From: Candidatus Babelota bacterium
Lineage (GTDB): Bacteria > Babelota > Babeliae > Babelales > Vermiphilaceae
NCBI GenBank assembly: GCA_029262595.1
Contig: JAJCZB010000011.1
Coordinates: 1-64,000 of the forward strand
Length of the DNA stretch: 64,000 nt
Reading direction: 5' to 3'
The notes below the pieces were generated by a model that did not search any database, was not told where the DNA came from, and saw only the letters and a list, made by a program, of their open reading frames with translations. The position numbers and the translations under genes are program-made. Positions 6,283 to 36,602 of the stretch are shown here, piece by piece. Position 1 is the first letter of the stretch. Each line of letters starts with the position of its first letter.

Positions 6283-6310
6283 AAAAAGCCCCTTGCAAAA
6301 AGGGGCCTTT
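6283..6310 (-). terminator. Intrinsic terminator
   Basis: A GCCCC/GGGGC stem with an A/T-rich loop and T-runs. It lies downstream of the secreted-protein gene at 6401-6862 and before trhO. Confidence 0.7.
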
Positions 6311-6400: not shown

Positions 6401-6862
6401 CTACTTCTCTTGACCAGTCAATTCTTCTATAGCGTCTGCTACTTCTCTTTTTACTTCTGCTAAAAAGGGCCCAAACTTAACCCCGCTGCCTAACAAAGCG
6501 TCGCTACCGTTAGAGTACACATGGGGACCATTCACAGCTTCTATCATCTGTAGCACTCGCAACATTTTCTTAAGCCTACTCGTATCATCTTGAGTCGCAC
6601 CACCTACAACGCCTGCTACTTCTCTTTTTACTTCTGCTAAAAAGGGCCCAAACTTAACCCCGCTGCCTGACAAAGCGTCGCTACCGTTAGAGTACACATG
6701 GGGATCATTCACAGCTTCTATCAGCTGTAGCACTCGCAACATTTCCTTAAGCCTGCTCGTATCATCTTGAGTCGCACCACCTGCAGCCGCTGCGCCAGCG
6801 CCATCTGCGGAAAAACTAGCCATGGGAAATAAAAAAGCCAAAGTCATTAATGTTTTTTTCAT
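6401..6862 (-). CDS. Exported protein with two tandem 59-residue repeats
   Basis: 153 residues. The signal peptide is MKKTLMTLAFLFPMASFSA. Residues 28-86 and 87-145 are near-identical copies of one unit (GATQDDTSRLK...FGPFLAEVKREVA). The DNA shows this as a 177-bp tandem duplication (about 6433-6609 and 6610-6786) with few differences, so it is recent. Each unit has a helical half and a motif HVYSNGSDAL. The first 83 bp, including the ribosome-binding site and signal peptide, are almost identical to those of the next gene upstream (offset 510 bp), although the mature proteins differ. Function unknown. Confidence 0.7.
   Translation of the reverse strand: MKKTLMTLAFLFPMASFSADGAGAAAAGGATQDDTSRLKEMLRVLQLIEAVNDPHVYSNGSDALSGSGVKFGPFLAEVKREVAGVVGGATQDDTSRLKKMLRVLQMIEAVNGPHVYSNGSDALLGSGVKFGPFLAEVKREVADAIEELTGQEK
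6433..6786 (-). repeat. 177-bp in-frame tandem duplication
   Basis: Two adjacent copies inside the gene at 6401-6862, differing at only a handful of positions. Reading frame is kept (59 codons). Confidence 0.9.
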
Positions 6863-6873
6863 GCAAATCCTTT
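6791..6873 (-). repeat. 83-bp direct repeat, copy 2: leader and signal-peptide module
   Basis: Matches 7301-7383 with four differences. It covers an AAGGATTTGC ribosome-binding site, the ATG, and about 23 codons of signal peptide and linker. The stop codon of the upstream gene (6872-6874) sits exactly at its edge. Confidence 0.9.
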
Positions 6874-7372
6874 ATTTGCCATCAGAGGATGCGTCCTCTT
6901 CTCTTATCTGCCTTTCAAGGCTCTCTCTTCTTCTCTCTTTAAAGTCCTCATACGACCCTGCAACTCCACCTGTGAAGAGTATAGCATCATTCCATTCCTG
7001 ACTTACTAAGAGATCTATACGAAGCTCAGTTAGATGGCCATCAAGTCTCGCTTGAGCACTAATCACCTCTCCTAATAATTCCTGAGCATCAGCATCACCC
7101 AAACCTTTAACTGACGTACCATAGAGTTCTTTTGCTCTACGAAAATCACCTAGTCCGGCTTTATAATAGCCGAAGGCGCCTTGATTCTCCTGCTGCGCTA
7201 TCTCTCCATACTGAGTAAAAGCCAGAGCCGTTGATAACAGGTCTTGCTGTGCTTGCGCTACTTGGCTAGCTACTCCTTCATGCACAGCACCTTCTGCCGA
7301 TGCGCCAGCGCCAGCTGCGGCAAAACTAGCCATGGGGAATAAAAGAGCCAAAGTCATTAATGTTTTTTTCAT
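6872..7372 (-). CDS. Exported helical protein, unknown function
   Basis: 166 residues from the ATG at 7372, chosen because AAGGATTTGC precedes it and a signal peptide (MKKTLMTLALLFPMASFAAA) follows; the longer frame to 7486 adds non-signal sequence. The mature part is charged and helical (QAQQDLLSTALAF, FKERRRESLERQIRE) and ends in an acidic/basic tail. Leader and signal peptide are shared with the downstream gene, but the mature part is unrelated. Its stop codon overlaps the ribosome-binding region of the next gene, so the two are probably translated from one mRNA. Confidence 0.65.
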   Translation of the reverse strand: MKKTLMTLALLFPMASFAAAGAGASAEGAVHEGVASQVAQAQQDLLSTALAFTQYGEIAQQENQGAFGYYKAGLGDFRRAKELYGTSVKGLGDADAQELLGEVISAQARLDGHLTELRIDLLVSQEWNDAILFTGGVAGSYEDFKERRRESLERQIREEDASSDGK

Positions 7373-7383
7373 GCAAATCCTTT
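7301..7383 (-). repeat. 83-bp direct repeat, copy 1: leader and signal-peptide module
   Basis: Partner of 6791-6873, 510 bp apart. Contains the ribosome-binding site and signal peptide of the 6872-7372 gene. Confidence 0.9.
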
Positions 7384-7512
7384 TGGGTAATAAAAATATA
7401 AAAACATTTTTGAAATAGTAATCGATATTGCAGAAAAATAAAGGATTCTTTAAAATTGCTTCCCAATTGAGTATGATCAAGCGCACGGGGATTTTAAAAA
7501 GGGGAGTCCGTT

Positions 7513-8241
7513 ATGAAAACAATTCTTTTCAGCATAGTTGCATGCACATCACTGCATGCCATGGTAGAAGTACCAGACTTCGCACCGCATGATCCAACAC
7601 AGAATTTTGCATTACCAGATGGCTCACACATCGAATTTACTCCCGAAGACTTTTCGGGCGACGATAGCGCGCGCTTTATCACTCTCTGCCCACCTGGTGC
7701 CGTACGGCCAAGCATGGCAGGAGCTCCGCCACGGCATACTCGCATGAATGGCGATCGCCAAGAGACGCGTGTTGCTGTTGAACTCATGCCTATCGAACTC
7801 GTCATAGATAACTTCCAACCCATTATTGCATTTGATGCATACCCAGAAAGTAATCGCGCATTCATTGTGTGCAGAGATGATGGAACATGCACACTTATTA
7901 ACCTTGAAAATCCTGCCGAACACCACTATGTTACCGCCCGCATTGAGCATGATGCGATTCGAGCCTGCTACTTTGTAAGCGAAAACACCGTACGCATTAT
8001 TAGCCAATCAAACGTCTATGAATGGAATTTTACTGCCGGACGGCTTGCACTAATAGGCCGCCCATCGCACTCACCAACCTTTGATGCATCATGTATTACT
8101 ATAGTTCGTCGCAAAGGTGCCGGAGCTGGCGCTGCCGCACCCGGAGCCGCAGTTGCTCGTGGCACCACGCCGCGCCAACCAATGGGATGCTGGAGGATGC
8201 TGATGTGGGTGCTTTTTGGAAAAAAAATATATGGCCGCTAA
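7513..8241 (+). CDS. Exported protein with beta-propeller-like repeats, C-terminal basic tail
   Basis: 242 residues. A short signal peptide (MKTILFSIVACTSLHA) follows AAGGGGAG at a normal distance. Residues 95-185 contain beta strands spaced as in WD-like blades (AFIVCRDDGTCTLINL, TVRIISQSNVYEWNF), but too few for a full propeller. A Gly/Ala linker (GAGAGAAAPGAAVA) precedes a C-terminal CWRMLMWVLFGKK segment that could associate with a membrane. No family recognised. It diverges from the secreted genes at 6401-7372, and a convergent secreted-protein gene follows. Confidence 0.6.
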   Translation: MKTILFSIVACTSLHAMVEVPDFAPHDPTQNFALPDGSHIEFTPEDFSGDDSARFITLCPPGAVRPSMAGAPPRHTRMNGDRQETRVAVELMPIELVIDNFQPIIAFDAYPESNRAFIVCRDDGTCTLINLENPAEHHYVTARIEHDAIRACYFVSENTVRIISQSNVYEWNFTAGRLALIGRPSHSPTFDASCITIVRRKGAGAGAAAPGAAVARGTTPRQPMGCWRMLMWVLFGKKIYGR

Positions 8242-10363: not shown

Positions 10364-10390
10364 ATTCGCAAGGTATTTACTGAGGTTATT

Positions 10391-10864
10391 ATGAAAAAAC
10401 TATATCTCTTTTCATTACTACTTTTTTCAGGCGCATGCGCCTGGGGCGCTGATCAAACTGTATCGCGAAGCGAATCATTACCTGCAGAGGTTTTTATTTG
10501 TCTCAAAGAAAAATACTGCCCGCCGAAAAAAGACGGCGTTGGCAAACGAGACTTTAAAAAACCTGAAAAACCTCATCGGGTGCTTAATCGTGATCAAGGA
10601 AAGCCTAAAGCTGGCTCTAGACCAAAACGAGCACATCCGAAAGCCGCTCCAAAATATTCTCGACGCCCATCCAGGCAGAATGGTGGCCATCCTTTTAAGC
10701 TAGAACATATCGGGACGCCACAGCCTCATGGCTGGACTCCCGCTCAAGTGCCCGATGGCGCCGCTGTTCAAATAGGTGTGCTAGGCAGGATGATAGTCGT
10801 TCGTGCCGCCCCTCCAGGTGATCAGCAAGCTCTTCCTGCTGGCAGCGACGAGCCTGCAACATAA
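10391..10864 (+). CDS. Exported basic Pro/Lys-rich protein
   Basis: 157 residues: signal peptide (MKKLYLFSLLLFSGACAWGA), then a very basic, Pro-rich middle (KPEKPHRVLNRDQGKPKAG, PKRAHPKAAPKYSRRPSRQ; residues 45-100) and a Gly/Pro/Ala end. It starts 27 bp after the previous gene with the same GAGGTTATT leader, so they form a two-gene operon. The composition suggests a disordered protein that binds acidic polymers, but this is inference only. Confidence 0.62.
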   Translation: MKKLYLFSLLLFSGACAWGADQTVSRSESLPAEVFICLKEKYCPPKKDGVGKRDFKKPEKPHRVLNRDQGKPKAGSRPKRAHPKAAPKYSRRPSRQNGGHPFKLEHIGTPQPHGWTPAQVPDGAAVQIGVLGRMIVVRAAPPGDQQALPAGSDEPAT

Positions 10865-32250: not shown

Positions 32251-33831
32251 TTACTCCGCTTTTTGTGCCCATCGTCTTGCTTTAGGAGGGGCAAAAGCAG
32301 ATTGAGCCCTTTTTTGAGGATCTTCGCACACTGGCAATGCCACGTGAACATAATCTCGATAGGCCTCTCCCCCCTTGCGCAGTCGGCGGCCTTTTTTAGC
32401 TGGATCCTGACTCAGAGTATTTACTTCATACAAGCCAAATTTTTTGGTATGTCCCATATTCCACTCAAAATTATCAACCAACGACCAATAGTAAAAACCT
32501 ATCAGATTAACTCCTTCCTGCAGCGCCTTATAAGCAGCATTTGCATAGCCGATAATCCACTTTTCACGGCGATCGTCTTTCGCATCAGGAATACCATTTT
32601 CCGTAATATAAATTGGCTTGCCAAGCTGATTCATCTCATGCAATGCCTCATATAGCGCCTCCGGCCACGTACAATAATCCATATCAGTCATAGGGCGCCC
32701 TTTTGCTGGAGCCGGCTGAGGTTTTAAAATCACGCGAGAATAAAAGTTGAGCCCGATATAGTCATTACAATACGGCGCATCTGCGTATGTCTTTCGAATA
32801 GGCTTCATAGCAAATGGCCTTACCGGGACTACCCATCGAACAGCTCCCAGCATGTTAGACCACGTAGGGACATATTCAAAATCACCCGTTTTGAAAAAAT
32901 TAAATACTGTGTCATGTCCAAAAATAAAGTTCATAAAGGAAGCGGCCCCAACTTGAAATCTCTTCTGCTGGAAGCGAAGCATTTGATGCACAATGCCGAT
33001 TTTGCTTTCTTGGCCATGCGGCATGAGCTTGAGTGCTTTGTATGTTTCGCAATGCGCCTTAAGCAAATGCCAAAGTACTGGCCCAGCATACTGTGCTTGG
33101 CCTGCCGGAGCATGGGTGCCCAAGACGTACCCGCACGCACTGATTACCGTTGGCTCATTCATAGTGCACCACAACTGTACTTTATGCCCAAATCGCTTAA
33201 ATGCCTCCTGAGCAAAACGCACAAAATGTTCAATATTTTCTTCTTTTTCCCATCCGCCTAAGCGCGAAAACCACATGGGATGCACCCAATGATACAAGGT
33301 AATCATCGGTTTAATATCATTTTCTAATAATGCGTCAATGTAGCGATCAAATAACTTAAACGCTTCCTCATTCCATTCGCCTTGCACCGGATTTAAATCC
33401 GCCCATGGCAAATCAAATCGCCAGGAATTAAGGCCCTGCTCTTTCATAAGCTTGATATCATCAAACATCCGATTCCACCCATCAGCTCCATTGCCTACGG
33501 TGTGGCCAAAATCTATCGGAGAGACTTTCGAACCAATTCCTACCCCACGTTTTTTTTTACGTGAGATTTGATATCGAACTTTGTGTTTGTTTTCAAAAAA
33601 GGTCCAATTACTGTTTGGCTTGCCGTGGGTTTTCCATGAATTGTGGCCCGCATATTGATACCAGGAAATACCGGAGCCTTTGATCGCAAAAGAAACGCCA
33701 CCTTCTTTTTTTTCAAAGATGGAATCAGAAAGGGGCAATCGTGCAATAGATACAGCAGAGCTCTTCATTACCGCTCCAACTAAACTACTCACCACAATAG
33801 ACACACCTAAAAGCATTCGCGCTAAGCGCAT
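32251..33831 (-). CDS. Exported glycoside hydrolase family 1 beta-glycosidase
   Basis: 526 residues. An N-terminal signal peptide (MRLARMLLGVSIVVSSLVGA) is unusual for bacterial GH1 enzymes, which are mostly cytosolic. The (beta/alpha)8 domain runs from residue 50. The acid/base is Glu226 in WCTMNEPTV and the nucleophile Glu411 in IYITENGIPD; SWRFDLPWADLNP and FYYWSLVDNFEW also match. It would hydrolyse beta-glucosides or similar in the periplasm or outside, perhaps host glycans. The substrate cannot be read from sequence. Stands alone between rpmA and polA. Confidence 0.93.
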   Translation of the reverse strand: MRLARMLLGVSIVVSSLVGAVMKSSAVSIARLPLSDSIFEKKEGGVSFAIKGSGISWYQYAGHNSWKTHGKPNSNWTFFENKHKVRYQISRKKKRGVGIGSKVSPIDFGHTVGNGADGWNRMFDDIKLMKEQGLNSWRFDLPWADLNPVQGEWNEEAFKLFDRYIDALLENDIKPMITLYHWVHPMWFSRLGGWEKEENIEHFVRFAQEAFKRFGHKVQLWCTMNEPTVISACGYVLGTHAPAGQAQYAGPVLWHLLKAHCETYKALKLMPHGQESKIGIVHQMLRFQQKRFQVGAASFMNFIFGHDTVFNFFKTGDFEYVPTWSNMLGAVRWVVPVRPFAMKPIRKTYADAPYCNDYIGLNFYSRVILKPQPAPAKGRPMTDMDYCTWPEALYEALHEMNQLGKPIYITENGIPDAKDDRREKWIIGYANAAYKALQEGVNLIGFYYWSLVDNFEWNMGHTKKFGLYEVNTLSQDPAKKGRRLRKGGEAYRDYVHVALPVCEDPQKRAQSAFAPPKARRWAQKAE

Positions 33832-33881
33832 ATCTCATCCCCTAAAATACAACTTTTTTCCCTATCTATCCCTAGTTTAGC

Positions 33882-36602
33882 TTATTTTGAGACTTGGGCC
33901 CAATCCTTTCCTATTCGCGTAGTTACCACCAAAGGTACATTCCAATCTACTATCCGCTCAAGAGTATCTTTTGCCAGCGCTTCAACCTGCGTACTTACCT
34001 CTTTCGGAGCGGAAATAAGAAGTTCGTCATGAATTTGAAGAAGCATCTGAGATTGAGGAAATTCTTGCTTAAGTCGCTGCTCGAGCTGAATCATCCCTTG
34101 TTTCATAATTTCAGCAGCAGTCCCCTGTGCAACCGTATTAATCGCAATTCGCTTGGCTTCTTCATATAGGACTCTGTTTTTTTCATAAATCGCAGGTACG
34201 TATCGGCGACGCCCCCAATGGGTAGTAACATATCCATCGCGCTCAGCATCTGAAACGATTTTATCCATCCACTCACGAACCCCTGGGTATTGCGCAAAGT
34301 ACGTATCGATATATTGCTTTGCTTCTTTAAATGAAATACCCAAATCTTTTGAAAGGCCATAGGGAGTAAGCCCATACAAAATACTAAAGTTGATGCGCTT
34401 ACCAATTTGCCGTTGCGCGCTCGTTACCTGATCGAGTTGCACATCAAAAAGTCGCGCTGCCGTTTCGGCGTGAATATCATGCCCACTTTTAAACGCTTCA
34501 AGCAGTGCCGCATCTTGCGAAAGATACGCAAGCACACGTAGCTCAATCTGCGAATAATCGCCGGAGATAAATGCGTTACCTTCAATGGGCTGAAATGCTG
34601 CACGAATCGCAAGCCCCGGGCCAGATACCGGCACATTTTGCAAATTCGGATCAAAGCTTGAAAGGCGCCCCGTAGCCACACGCGTTTGATTAAACGTGGT
34701 ATGAATGCGCTTATCTTTGGGGTTAACGTAACTGGGCAACGCTTCTATATATGTGCTTTTTAATTTAAAGAGCTCGCGATATTTCAAAATTAATGCCGGC
34801 ACAGGATGTAATTGCGACAGCGCTTGCAGCACTTCGTGATCGGTTGAGTATCCCGTTCCTTTTGAGCTCTTTTTTTGCGGTGGTAATTTAAGATCATAAA
34901 AAAGCAGCTGCTCAACTTGTTTTGGAGAATTGAGATTAATTTTTTCATGTTTTTGCTCGAGCATTGCAATAATATCCGCCTCAATTTTTGCAAGCGCGTT
35001 ACCAACCTGCAAATCCAGCTTCATCAGCAATTCTTGATCTACTAAAATACCACGCCGCTCCATTTGATAGAGCACGTGCATGAGTGGCATTTCAATATTA
35101 TAAAAAAGCGATGCCATACCTTCTTTTTCAAGTTCTTTTTTGAAAATGCCATGCAGCTTAAATGTTTGATATGCATCGTTAGCCGAGTAATCAGTAGCAA
35201 GCGCAAGATGCACAAATGAAAAGTTTTTGAGCTTAGGCGCTTTGACTACTTCATCGAACGTAAGCATCTCCTCATCAAAATAAAACTGTGCCAAATGCTT
35301 CAGACCAATGCGCTGCCAATCTTTTGTTACAAGCGATGCGGCAATCAAAGTATCAAACGATACATTCGCCACTTCGATGCCATGCGAGGCCAAAACGTGC
35401 ATATCGAATTTTGCATTATGCATGTAGACCTGAATATTTTTATTTTCTAGCACCGGCTTGAGCGCTGCTTTAACTTCATCGTAAGAAAGTTGCTGCTCAA
35501 TCGTCTGATGGCCAAACGGAATATAATAGGCTACCGATTCATTTGTGCAGATCGAGATTCCCACCATGTTAGTCTGCAAAGGGCTCACGCTATCGCACTC
35601 TGTATCCAATGCGCACAGGCCCGCAGTTTCAATTTCTTGTACCACGCTTGCAAGCGCGATCGGCGTATTCACGCATTGAAAATTTTTCTGCTTAAGGGCT
35701 ACCAACTTTTGCTCAAACATCGCTTGGCGCTGCTCTTTAGTCGCGCCGAGCTCATCAAGTAAACTTTTAAGCTCTAATTTTTTAAATACCGGCTGCGCCT
35801 TAATCCAATTGCGCGCATCGAACTGAATATCTGCTTGCGTTACGTTCGTTGGTACGCGCTGCAGTAAAAAAAGCGTACGGCTTAAAAACGCATTATCGCG
35901 CCCTGCTTCCAGCGCATTCTTGGTGCGAGGTTTTTTCACTTCATCAAGGCGCTCATAGAGATCTTCTAGCGAATCAAACTGGGTTACTAATTCTTGCGCG
36001 CCTTTTTTTCCAATGCCACGCACACCCGGAATATTATCTGAAGCATCGCCAAGAAGTGAAAAAAAGAACGGAAGTTTTTCTACCGGAAAGCCAAGCTTAG
36101 TTTCAAGATCCTCTTTTGAAATAAGTTCATCTTTAAAAAAGTCATAGAGGTAGGCATTGGCTTGCGTAAGCGCTTGGCCCATATCTTTATCGGAAGTAAC
36201 GTAGACCATTTTTTTATCGCCATTGCCCTGCTCGCGCGCAAGCGAATACATCAAATCATCCGCTTCATATCCTGAGCGAGAAAGCTGATGCAACCCAATT
36301 AAATCTGCAAATTCTTGGATATGCACTTTTTGATCAAAGAGATCGCTTGGCGGCGCTTGGCGCGTCGCTTTATATTCCTCAAAAAGTTCATGGCGCGTTG
36401 TTGGGCCTTTGCTATCCCAAACAAGTGCAACGTATGATGGGCCAAATTTTTCAATCAAGCGTTTTATCATCCGGCAAAAAGTATACACCGCATTAACCGG
36501 CTCACCACGAGAGGTATGCAGCGGCCGTGTGCCATAATAAGCGCGGTATAAAAAGGAGGAGCCATCAATTAAAAAAACTGTTTTTTTTGGATCTAATTTC
36601 AT
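33882..36602 (-). CDS. polA: DNA polymerase I
   Basis: 906 residues with three domains. 5'-nuclease (1-290): FLIDGSSFLYRAYYG, VALVWDSKGPTTRHELFEEYKATR, LGDASDNIPGVRGIGKKGA. 3'-5' exonuclease (about 310-500): LDTECDS, YMHNAKFDMHVL and DYSANDAYQTFKL keep the acidic residues, so proofreading is probably active. Polymerase (500-906): SSFDPNLQNVPV, GDYSQIELRVLAYLSQD, RQIGKRINFSILYGLTPYGL and LQIHDELL. Roles are Okazaki fragment processing and repair. Upstream is an inverted repeat pair. Confidence 0.97.
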   Translation of the reverse strand: MKLDPKKTVFLIDGSSFLYRAYYGTRPLHTSRGEPVNAVYTFCRMIKRLIEKFGPSYVALVWDSKGPTTRHELFEEYKATRQAPPSDLFDQKVHIQEFADLIGLHQLSRSGYEADDLMYSLAREQGNGDKKMVYVTSDKDMGQALTQANAYLYDFFKDELISKEDLETKLGFPVEKLPFFFSLLGDASDNIPGVRGIGKKGAQELVTQFDSLEDLYERLDEVKKPRTKNALEAGRDNAFLSRTLFLLQRVPTNVTQADIQFDARNWIKAQPVFKKLELKSLLDELGATKEQRQAMFEQKLVALKQKNFQCVNTPIALASVVQEIETAGLCALDTECDSVSPLQTNMVGISICTNESVAYYIPFGHQTIEQQLSYDEVKAALKPVLENKNIQVYMHNAKFDMHVLASHGIEVANVSFDTLIAASLVTKDWQRIGLKHLAQFYFDEEMLTFDEVVKAPKLKNFSFVHLALATDYSANDAYQTFKLHGIFKKELEKEGMASLFYNIEMPLMHVLYQMERRGILVDQELLMKLDLQVGNALAKIEADIIAMLEQKHEKINLNSPKQVEQLLFYDLKLPPQKKSSKGTGYSTDHEVLQALSQLHPVPALILKYRELFKLKSTYIEALPSYVNPKDKRIHTTFNQTRVATGRLSSFDPNLQNVPVSGPGLAIRAAFQPIEGNAFISGDYSQIELRVLAYLSQDAALLEAFKSGHDIHAETAARLFDVQLDQVTSAQRQIGKRINFSILYGLTPYGLSKDLGISFKEAKQYIDTYFAQYPGVREWMDKIVSDAERDGYVTTHWGRRRYVPAIYEKNRVLYEEAKRIAINTVAQGTAAEIMKQGMIQLEQRLKQEFPQSQMLLQIHDELLISAPKEVSTQVEALAKDTLERIVDWNVPLVVTTRIGKDWAQVSK

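Follow-up and report, generated by a model that had tools for sequence, protein, structure and literature searches.

Stavrinides, Ma and Guttman reportedly described in 2006 the terminal reassortment of type III effectors, in which a common N-terminal secretion signal and its 5' sequence are joined to unrelated C-terminal parts, giving rise to chimeric families. Phytoplasma proteins with the conserved SVM signal form a family that is known by its signal sequence. In Mycoplasma-type variable lipoproteins, the signal peptide carries a lipobox cysteine at its end, and strains show switching that is invertible or driven by a recombinase.

In the pea aphid, the region coding for the secretory signal of the cassette effectors is highly conserved and the mature sequence is divergent; in the part of the article that was accessible, the authors propose that a common secretory signal cassette is combined with novel coding regions (PMC7495047). 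In the bacterial phylum considered here, 37 tandem gene duplications are given for Babela massiliensis (PMC4378268), and 44% of the genes of Chromulinavorax encode signal peptides, a subset enriched in orphan genes (PMC6561590). The accessible sections of these two articles deal with tandem duplicates and expanded secreted families of Dependentiae and do not describe leaders on unrelated mature proteins (PMC4378268, PMC6561590). A literature search (with supplements and most subscription journals outside its coverage) returned no account of a leader common to unrelated exported proteins of Dependentiae.

Here, we describe two adjacent genes, A and B, in the window (the whole analyzed stretch of 64,000 nucleotides of a Candidatus Babelota bacterium), which share a leader and differ in what follows it. 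Both genes lie on the minus strand, so that A is the upstream and B the downstream gene, and they are separated by 9 nt (Table 1). In their own frames the coding scores are 0.195 for A and 0.178 for B, with a median of 0.169 for 426 sampled genes. One flanking gene encodes a rhodanese, whose relatives are found in metagenome bins of Candidatus Dependentiae/Babeliales. As a promoter-like site precedes A and a terminator-like site follows B (both are consensus matches only), a single transcript is plausible, in which case the cassette of B would need no promoter. Jointly with the cassette copying discussed below, we consider it likely that A and B constitute a short operon for two small Sec-exported orphan proteins of a Dependentiae parasite. 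The mature part of B is a tandem repeat of two units that are 95% identical, which the preliminary description had not mentioned; an internal repeat was also looked for in A and not found. The B units differ in nine codons, eight of them non-synonymously; the register may be wrong at the unit end, where four of these codons are located.

Table 1. Features of the A/B locus and of the compared congener locus; positions without a prefix are those of the window.
Feature	Position	Strand	Size and type	Remarks
Gene A	6872..7372	(-)	166 aa, small, putatively exported	ORF; signal peptide, Gly/Ala linker, mature part all-helical in a model
Gene B	6401..6862	(-)	153 aa, small, putatively exported	ORF; A-like leader, two 59-aa repeats as mature part
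Cassette copy 1 (gene A)	7301..7383	(-)		RBS, ATG, signal peptide, beginning of linker; weaker match as far as 7276
Cassette copy 2 (gene B)	6791..6873	(-)		covers last two bases of the A stop; weaker match as far as 6766
B mature repeat unit 1	6604..6780	(-)	177 nt	
B mature repeat unit 2	6427..6603	(-)	177 nt	
Terminator-like site	6289..6304	(-)		downstream of B; consensus match only
Promoter-like site	7491..7519	(-)		upstream of A; 9/12, consensus match only
Gene C (congener)	L054:2260-2787	(-)	175 aa, exported	own, third mature part
Conserved leader pair	10384-10460 and L054:4747-4823		77 nt	

The preliminary description had reported four differences between the two 83-nt modules, and exactly four were counted over a stretch that spans the ribosome-binding site, the start codon, the signal peptide, and the start of a Gly/Ala-rich linker. 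Its placement of the A stop codon exactly at the module edge holds to within 2 nt, since the B cassette begins with two bases that belong to the TAA at 6872-6874. Within codons 1-24, 20 codons are identical, one differs synonymously, and three differ non-synonymously. The ungapped similarity reaches 108 nt at 89% (6766-6873 vs 7276-7383), the longest exact run within the module is 38 nt, and the leader match amounts to 122 bits. Counted from the start codon in 20-nt windows, the identity is 100, 90, 90, 85, and 65%, after which it falls to 20-40%. The similarity thus ends in the Gly/Ala-rich linker, where the B repeat unit starts (6780). Beyond this point, the mature proteins appear unrelated, as had been claimed from the first reading: both the protein comparison (p 0.84; z between -1.06 and 0.51 with start points from 21 to 41) and the DNA comparison on both strands are at chance level.

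Elsewhere in the window, the 83-mer has no ungapped match better than 41-42 mismatches, and a search of the own genome with the exact cassette yields the two A/B copies alone above noise. Further copies of the module, for which the preliminary description had proposed a search, are therefore absent from this genome; the recurrence concerns the pattern, with leaders of different sequence. In 86 genomes (the own genome and 85 relatives), A and B gave matches at their own locus only, no match was obtained among viral contigs, and neither a donor nor a homologue of the two mature parts was found in the own genome or the 85 relatives. No curated family of Pfam, NCBIfam, or PHROG matches A or B. A PHROG match of B (E 0.0007 over 28 residues) and weak Pfam matches below the cut-off were taken as chance. 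The structure model of A is all-helical (pLDDT 81), and a search of the PDB with it returned nothing at E up to 0.001. The model of B (pLDDT 49) is too poor for a fold comparison.

With their homologous 5' ends and non-homologous 3' parts, A and B resemble the products of terminal reassortment. Unlike the type III effectors, their N-termini are hydrophobic and Sec-like according to a simple hydropathy rule, without a type III secretion signal; moreover, the copies here sit in tandem, in many cases no more than 20 nt apart, and the genome yielded no donor of a mature part. Neither protein contains a cysteine and hence a lipobox cysteine, which sets them apart from Mycoplasma-type variable lipoproteins, and in Pfam at E up to 1 neither matched the phytoplasma SVM signal-sequence family. 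The pea aphid cassette effectors likewise keep the signal region and vary the mature part; however, according to the accessible part of that article, these families are eukaryotic, with miniature exons and mostly scattered loci, whereas the genes here are intron-free and the copies adjacent (PMC7495047). From plain tandem duplicates, A and B differ in that their mature parts are, by sequence comparison, apparently non-homologous.

The comparison with a congener rests on one species (G001). There, a single exported gene, C, takes the place of A and B between the same two flanking genes, whose proteins are 88% and 82% identical in the two genomes, and the region is collinear on both sides. The intergenic region upstream of A aligns with that upstream of C, and the leader of C is 68% identical to that of A over 174 nt and 69.5% identical to that of B over 105 nt. 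The leaders of A and B are thus nearer to each other than either is to that of C, from which it follows that they came to be shared after the species had separated. Gene C has no curated family match either, in a search that left out Pfam. Its mature part has no firm relation to that of A (p 0.25) and a weak similarity to that of B (p 0.0025). C ranks third of 775 sampled proteins for mature B and could be a far-diverged relative of B, although it ranks 32nd and 17th for the single B units and a profile built from both units gave no hit. The idea that C is a fusion of an A-like and a B-like part that was later split by leader insertion is unsupported by the comparisons of the mature parts. The divergent exported neighbour D evolves fast between the species, yet its mature part is still alignable across the split (score 281, z 66). 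As the A and B leaders parted after the species did, and the mature parts of A, B, and C show no firm relation at a distance over which D remains alignable, the cassette would have been joined to, or copied onto, already unrelated sequence.

Elsewhere in the window, positions 1397-1549 hold a repeat array with a 57-nt unit; it includes a stretch that is 93% identical to one of the congener and more alike between the species than most genes of the block, and related pieces occur at other places in the window.

A leader that outlasts its mature part was also observed between the species. Window gene 10391-10864 and C20:4757-5143 of the congener share leader and signal peptide (80.5% over 77 nt) and show no similarity in the mature parts (z -0.8 to -1.1). 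The reverse is seen in several exported orthologues (e.g., 49525, 51362, 52132, and 32251), where the mature part was kept and the signal peptide drifted. Among cross-species pairs sharing the 5' end, the mature z lies below 4 in 6/29 exported and 0/19 non-exported pairs, a contrast that is not significant (Fisher p 0.068), and one of the six (16998/36187) does not match in position.

To count how often neighbours share a leader, a single rule was applied to 415,651 bases of the own genome (G000), 367,158 bases of G001, and 400,000 bases each of G023 and G055. A pair shares its 5' end at 45 bits or more, is module-only if the mature z is below 4, and is exported according to the hydropathy rule. 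Over these stretches of four Dependentiae genomes, 35 of the 298 adjacent same-strand exported pairs share the 5' end, and 8 of these are module-only (G000 3/75, G001 2/74, G023 0/68, G055 3/81). Of the other exported pairs, 63/66,204 share the 5' end and 10 are module-only; six of these ten come from the same clusters, with partners that are next-but-one or more distant. Non-exported pairs hardly show the pattern, with 1/390 adjacent pairs sharing and none module-only, and 2/85,670 other pairs sharing and one module-only. For module-only exported pairs, the Fisher test gives p 6e-15, although it assumes independent pairs and the clusters violate this assumption. At 40 bits and with a strict ribosome-binding-site filter, which misses the C51 genes, the count is 12/124 vs 10/25,478. 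The pattern is real, above chance, and not unique to the A/B spot.

The clearest parallels to A and B are C51:1307/1746/2199 in the own genome, with shared leaders, unrelated mature parts, and gaps of 13 and 18 nt, and C8:70725/71088 in the congener. In the former region (L126:1307-2807), three tandem small exported genes are followed by another with a related-looking start. An array of G055 at 100.7-101.8 kb has the cassette pattern as well; its mature parts are very short (about 31-48 residues compared), which makes the unrelatedness test weak there, and its N-terminus may be an anchor and not a cleaved signal. The pair C20:33961/35131 is weak (51 bits), and a near miss of G023 at 90-92 kb looks, by eye, like diverged homologues.

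In two arrays of the congener, C8:58.1-61.8 kb (L132-L134) and C20:32.7-35.0 kb (32689-35043), neighbours share a longer N-terminal module. Here the upstream region, the leader, the signal peptide, and an N-terminal stretch to about residue 90-110 are common, and the C-terminal parts differ; the fourth gene of the C8 array (61163) has the leader and the signal peptide in common and nothing further. Among 181 genomes this longer module occurs in G001 only, in seven copies. By reading, the C8 genes 58094 and 61163 also end alike, which would make a mosaic.

A competing explanation is that one gene was simply duplicated in tandem and that its leader was kept, with the mature part of one copy, or of both, changing past recognition. 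Tandem duplication of exported genes is common in these genomes: 27 of the 35 cassette-sharing neighbours also have related mature parts, so that plain duplication is the commoner outcome. The pair C65:3811/4380, with leaders 88% identical over 108 nt, no synonymous change in 24 codons, and mature proteins that are homologous and strongly diverged (about 41% identity), fits such a course, and the fast evolution of D between the species speaks in the same direction. For A and B, however, four differences in 83 nt and one synonymous change in 24 codons stand against the lack of any similarity beyond about +100 nt, and the exported neighbour is still alignable over the much longer species split. 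Divergence after simple duplication thus does not fit well, and we regard it as unlikely.

Alternatively, the leaders could owe their likeness not to descent but to convergence or to a strong constraint from the translation start, codon bias, or the Sec signal. The exported genes of the phylum often start with MKK and a leucine-rich stretch, and distant genes do give weak matches of 40-50 bits, but the scarcity of matches of at least 45 bits among non-adjacent exported pairs compared with adjacent ones and the strength of the A/B match argue against this. Nor are leaders more conserved between the species (A/C and 10391/4757) than most collinear blocks, which mostly have about 67-81% DNA identity, and we therefore hold convergence to be extremely improbable. 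It is also very unlikely that A and B were joined at a repeat during assembly: the genome is a draft of 71 contigs, but the longest exact run is short, neither reading frame is broken, collinearity with the congener holds on each side of the block, and other loci show the pattern too, among them three module-only adjacent pairs of G055, a genome in a single contig.

We favour, as the probable explanation, a copying of the 5' cassette that postdates the split from the congener and involved two coding sequences with no relation to each other even before the event. Counted against this reading are the majority of plain duplicates among the cassette-sharing neighbours, the absence of module-only pairs from G023, the weak similarity between B and C, the non-significant cross-species contrast, and the single congener. 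The cassette itself would comprise the ribosome-binding site, the start codon, a Sec-type signal peptide, and the start of the Gly/Ala-rich linker, which may be the place where strands are joined, and it would confer translation and export on whatever follows. Copying may have proceeded by local recombination, either as a segmental duplication with a junction or as a gene-conversion-like overwriting. The reuse of a signal-peptide cassette, as first proposed, is supported by the age contrast to the congener, the recurrence in tandem genes, and the controls, whereas the two routes offered for it are inseparable from a third that had not been listed, namely the overwriting of the leader of a pre-existing neighbour. 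The routes that remain are a duplicated leader with a new mature part and a gene-conversion-like overwriting of the neighbour's leader; the C65 pair, with its like leaders and homologous but diverged mature parts, favours the existence of the latter. Judging from the leader type and the phylum, the products of A and B would be Sec-exported and may face the host.

The A/B case represents a known mode of evolution in a local form that uses a Sec-type leader. More speculatively, Dependentiae might keep making new exported proteins in this way, with an export cassette, promoter-less or promoter-bearing, being locally copied onto a neighbouring or new coding sequence. In that case, orphan host-facing proteins would have their nursery in the tandem exported genes, where conversion keeps the leaders alike and the mature parts turn over. 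If cassettes are copied locally, N-terminal similarity can mislead the clustering of protein families. Orphan exported proteins are numerous in Dependentiae; if true, local cassette copying would provide a concrete and testable route to new secreted proteins in a genome-reduced parasite.
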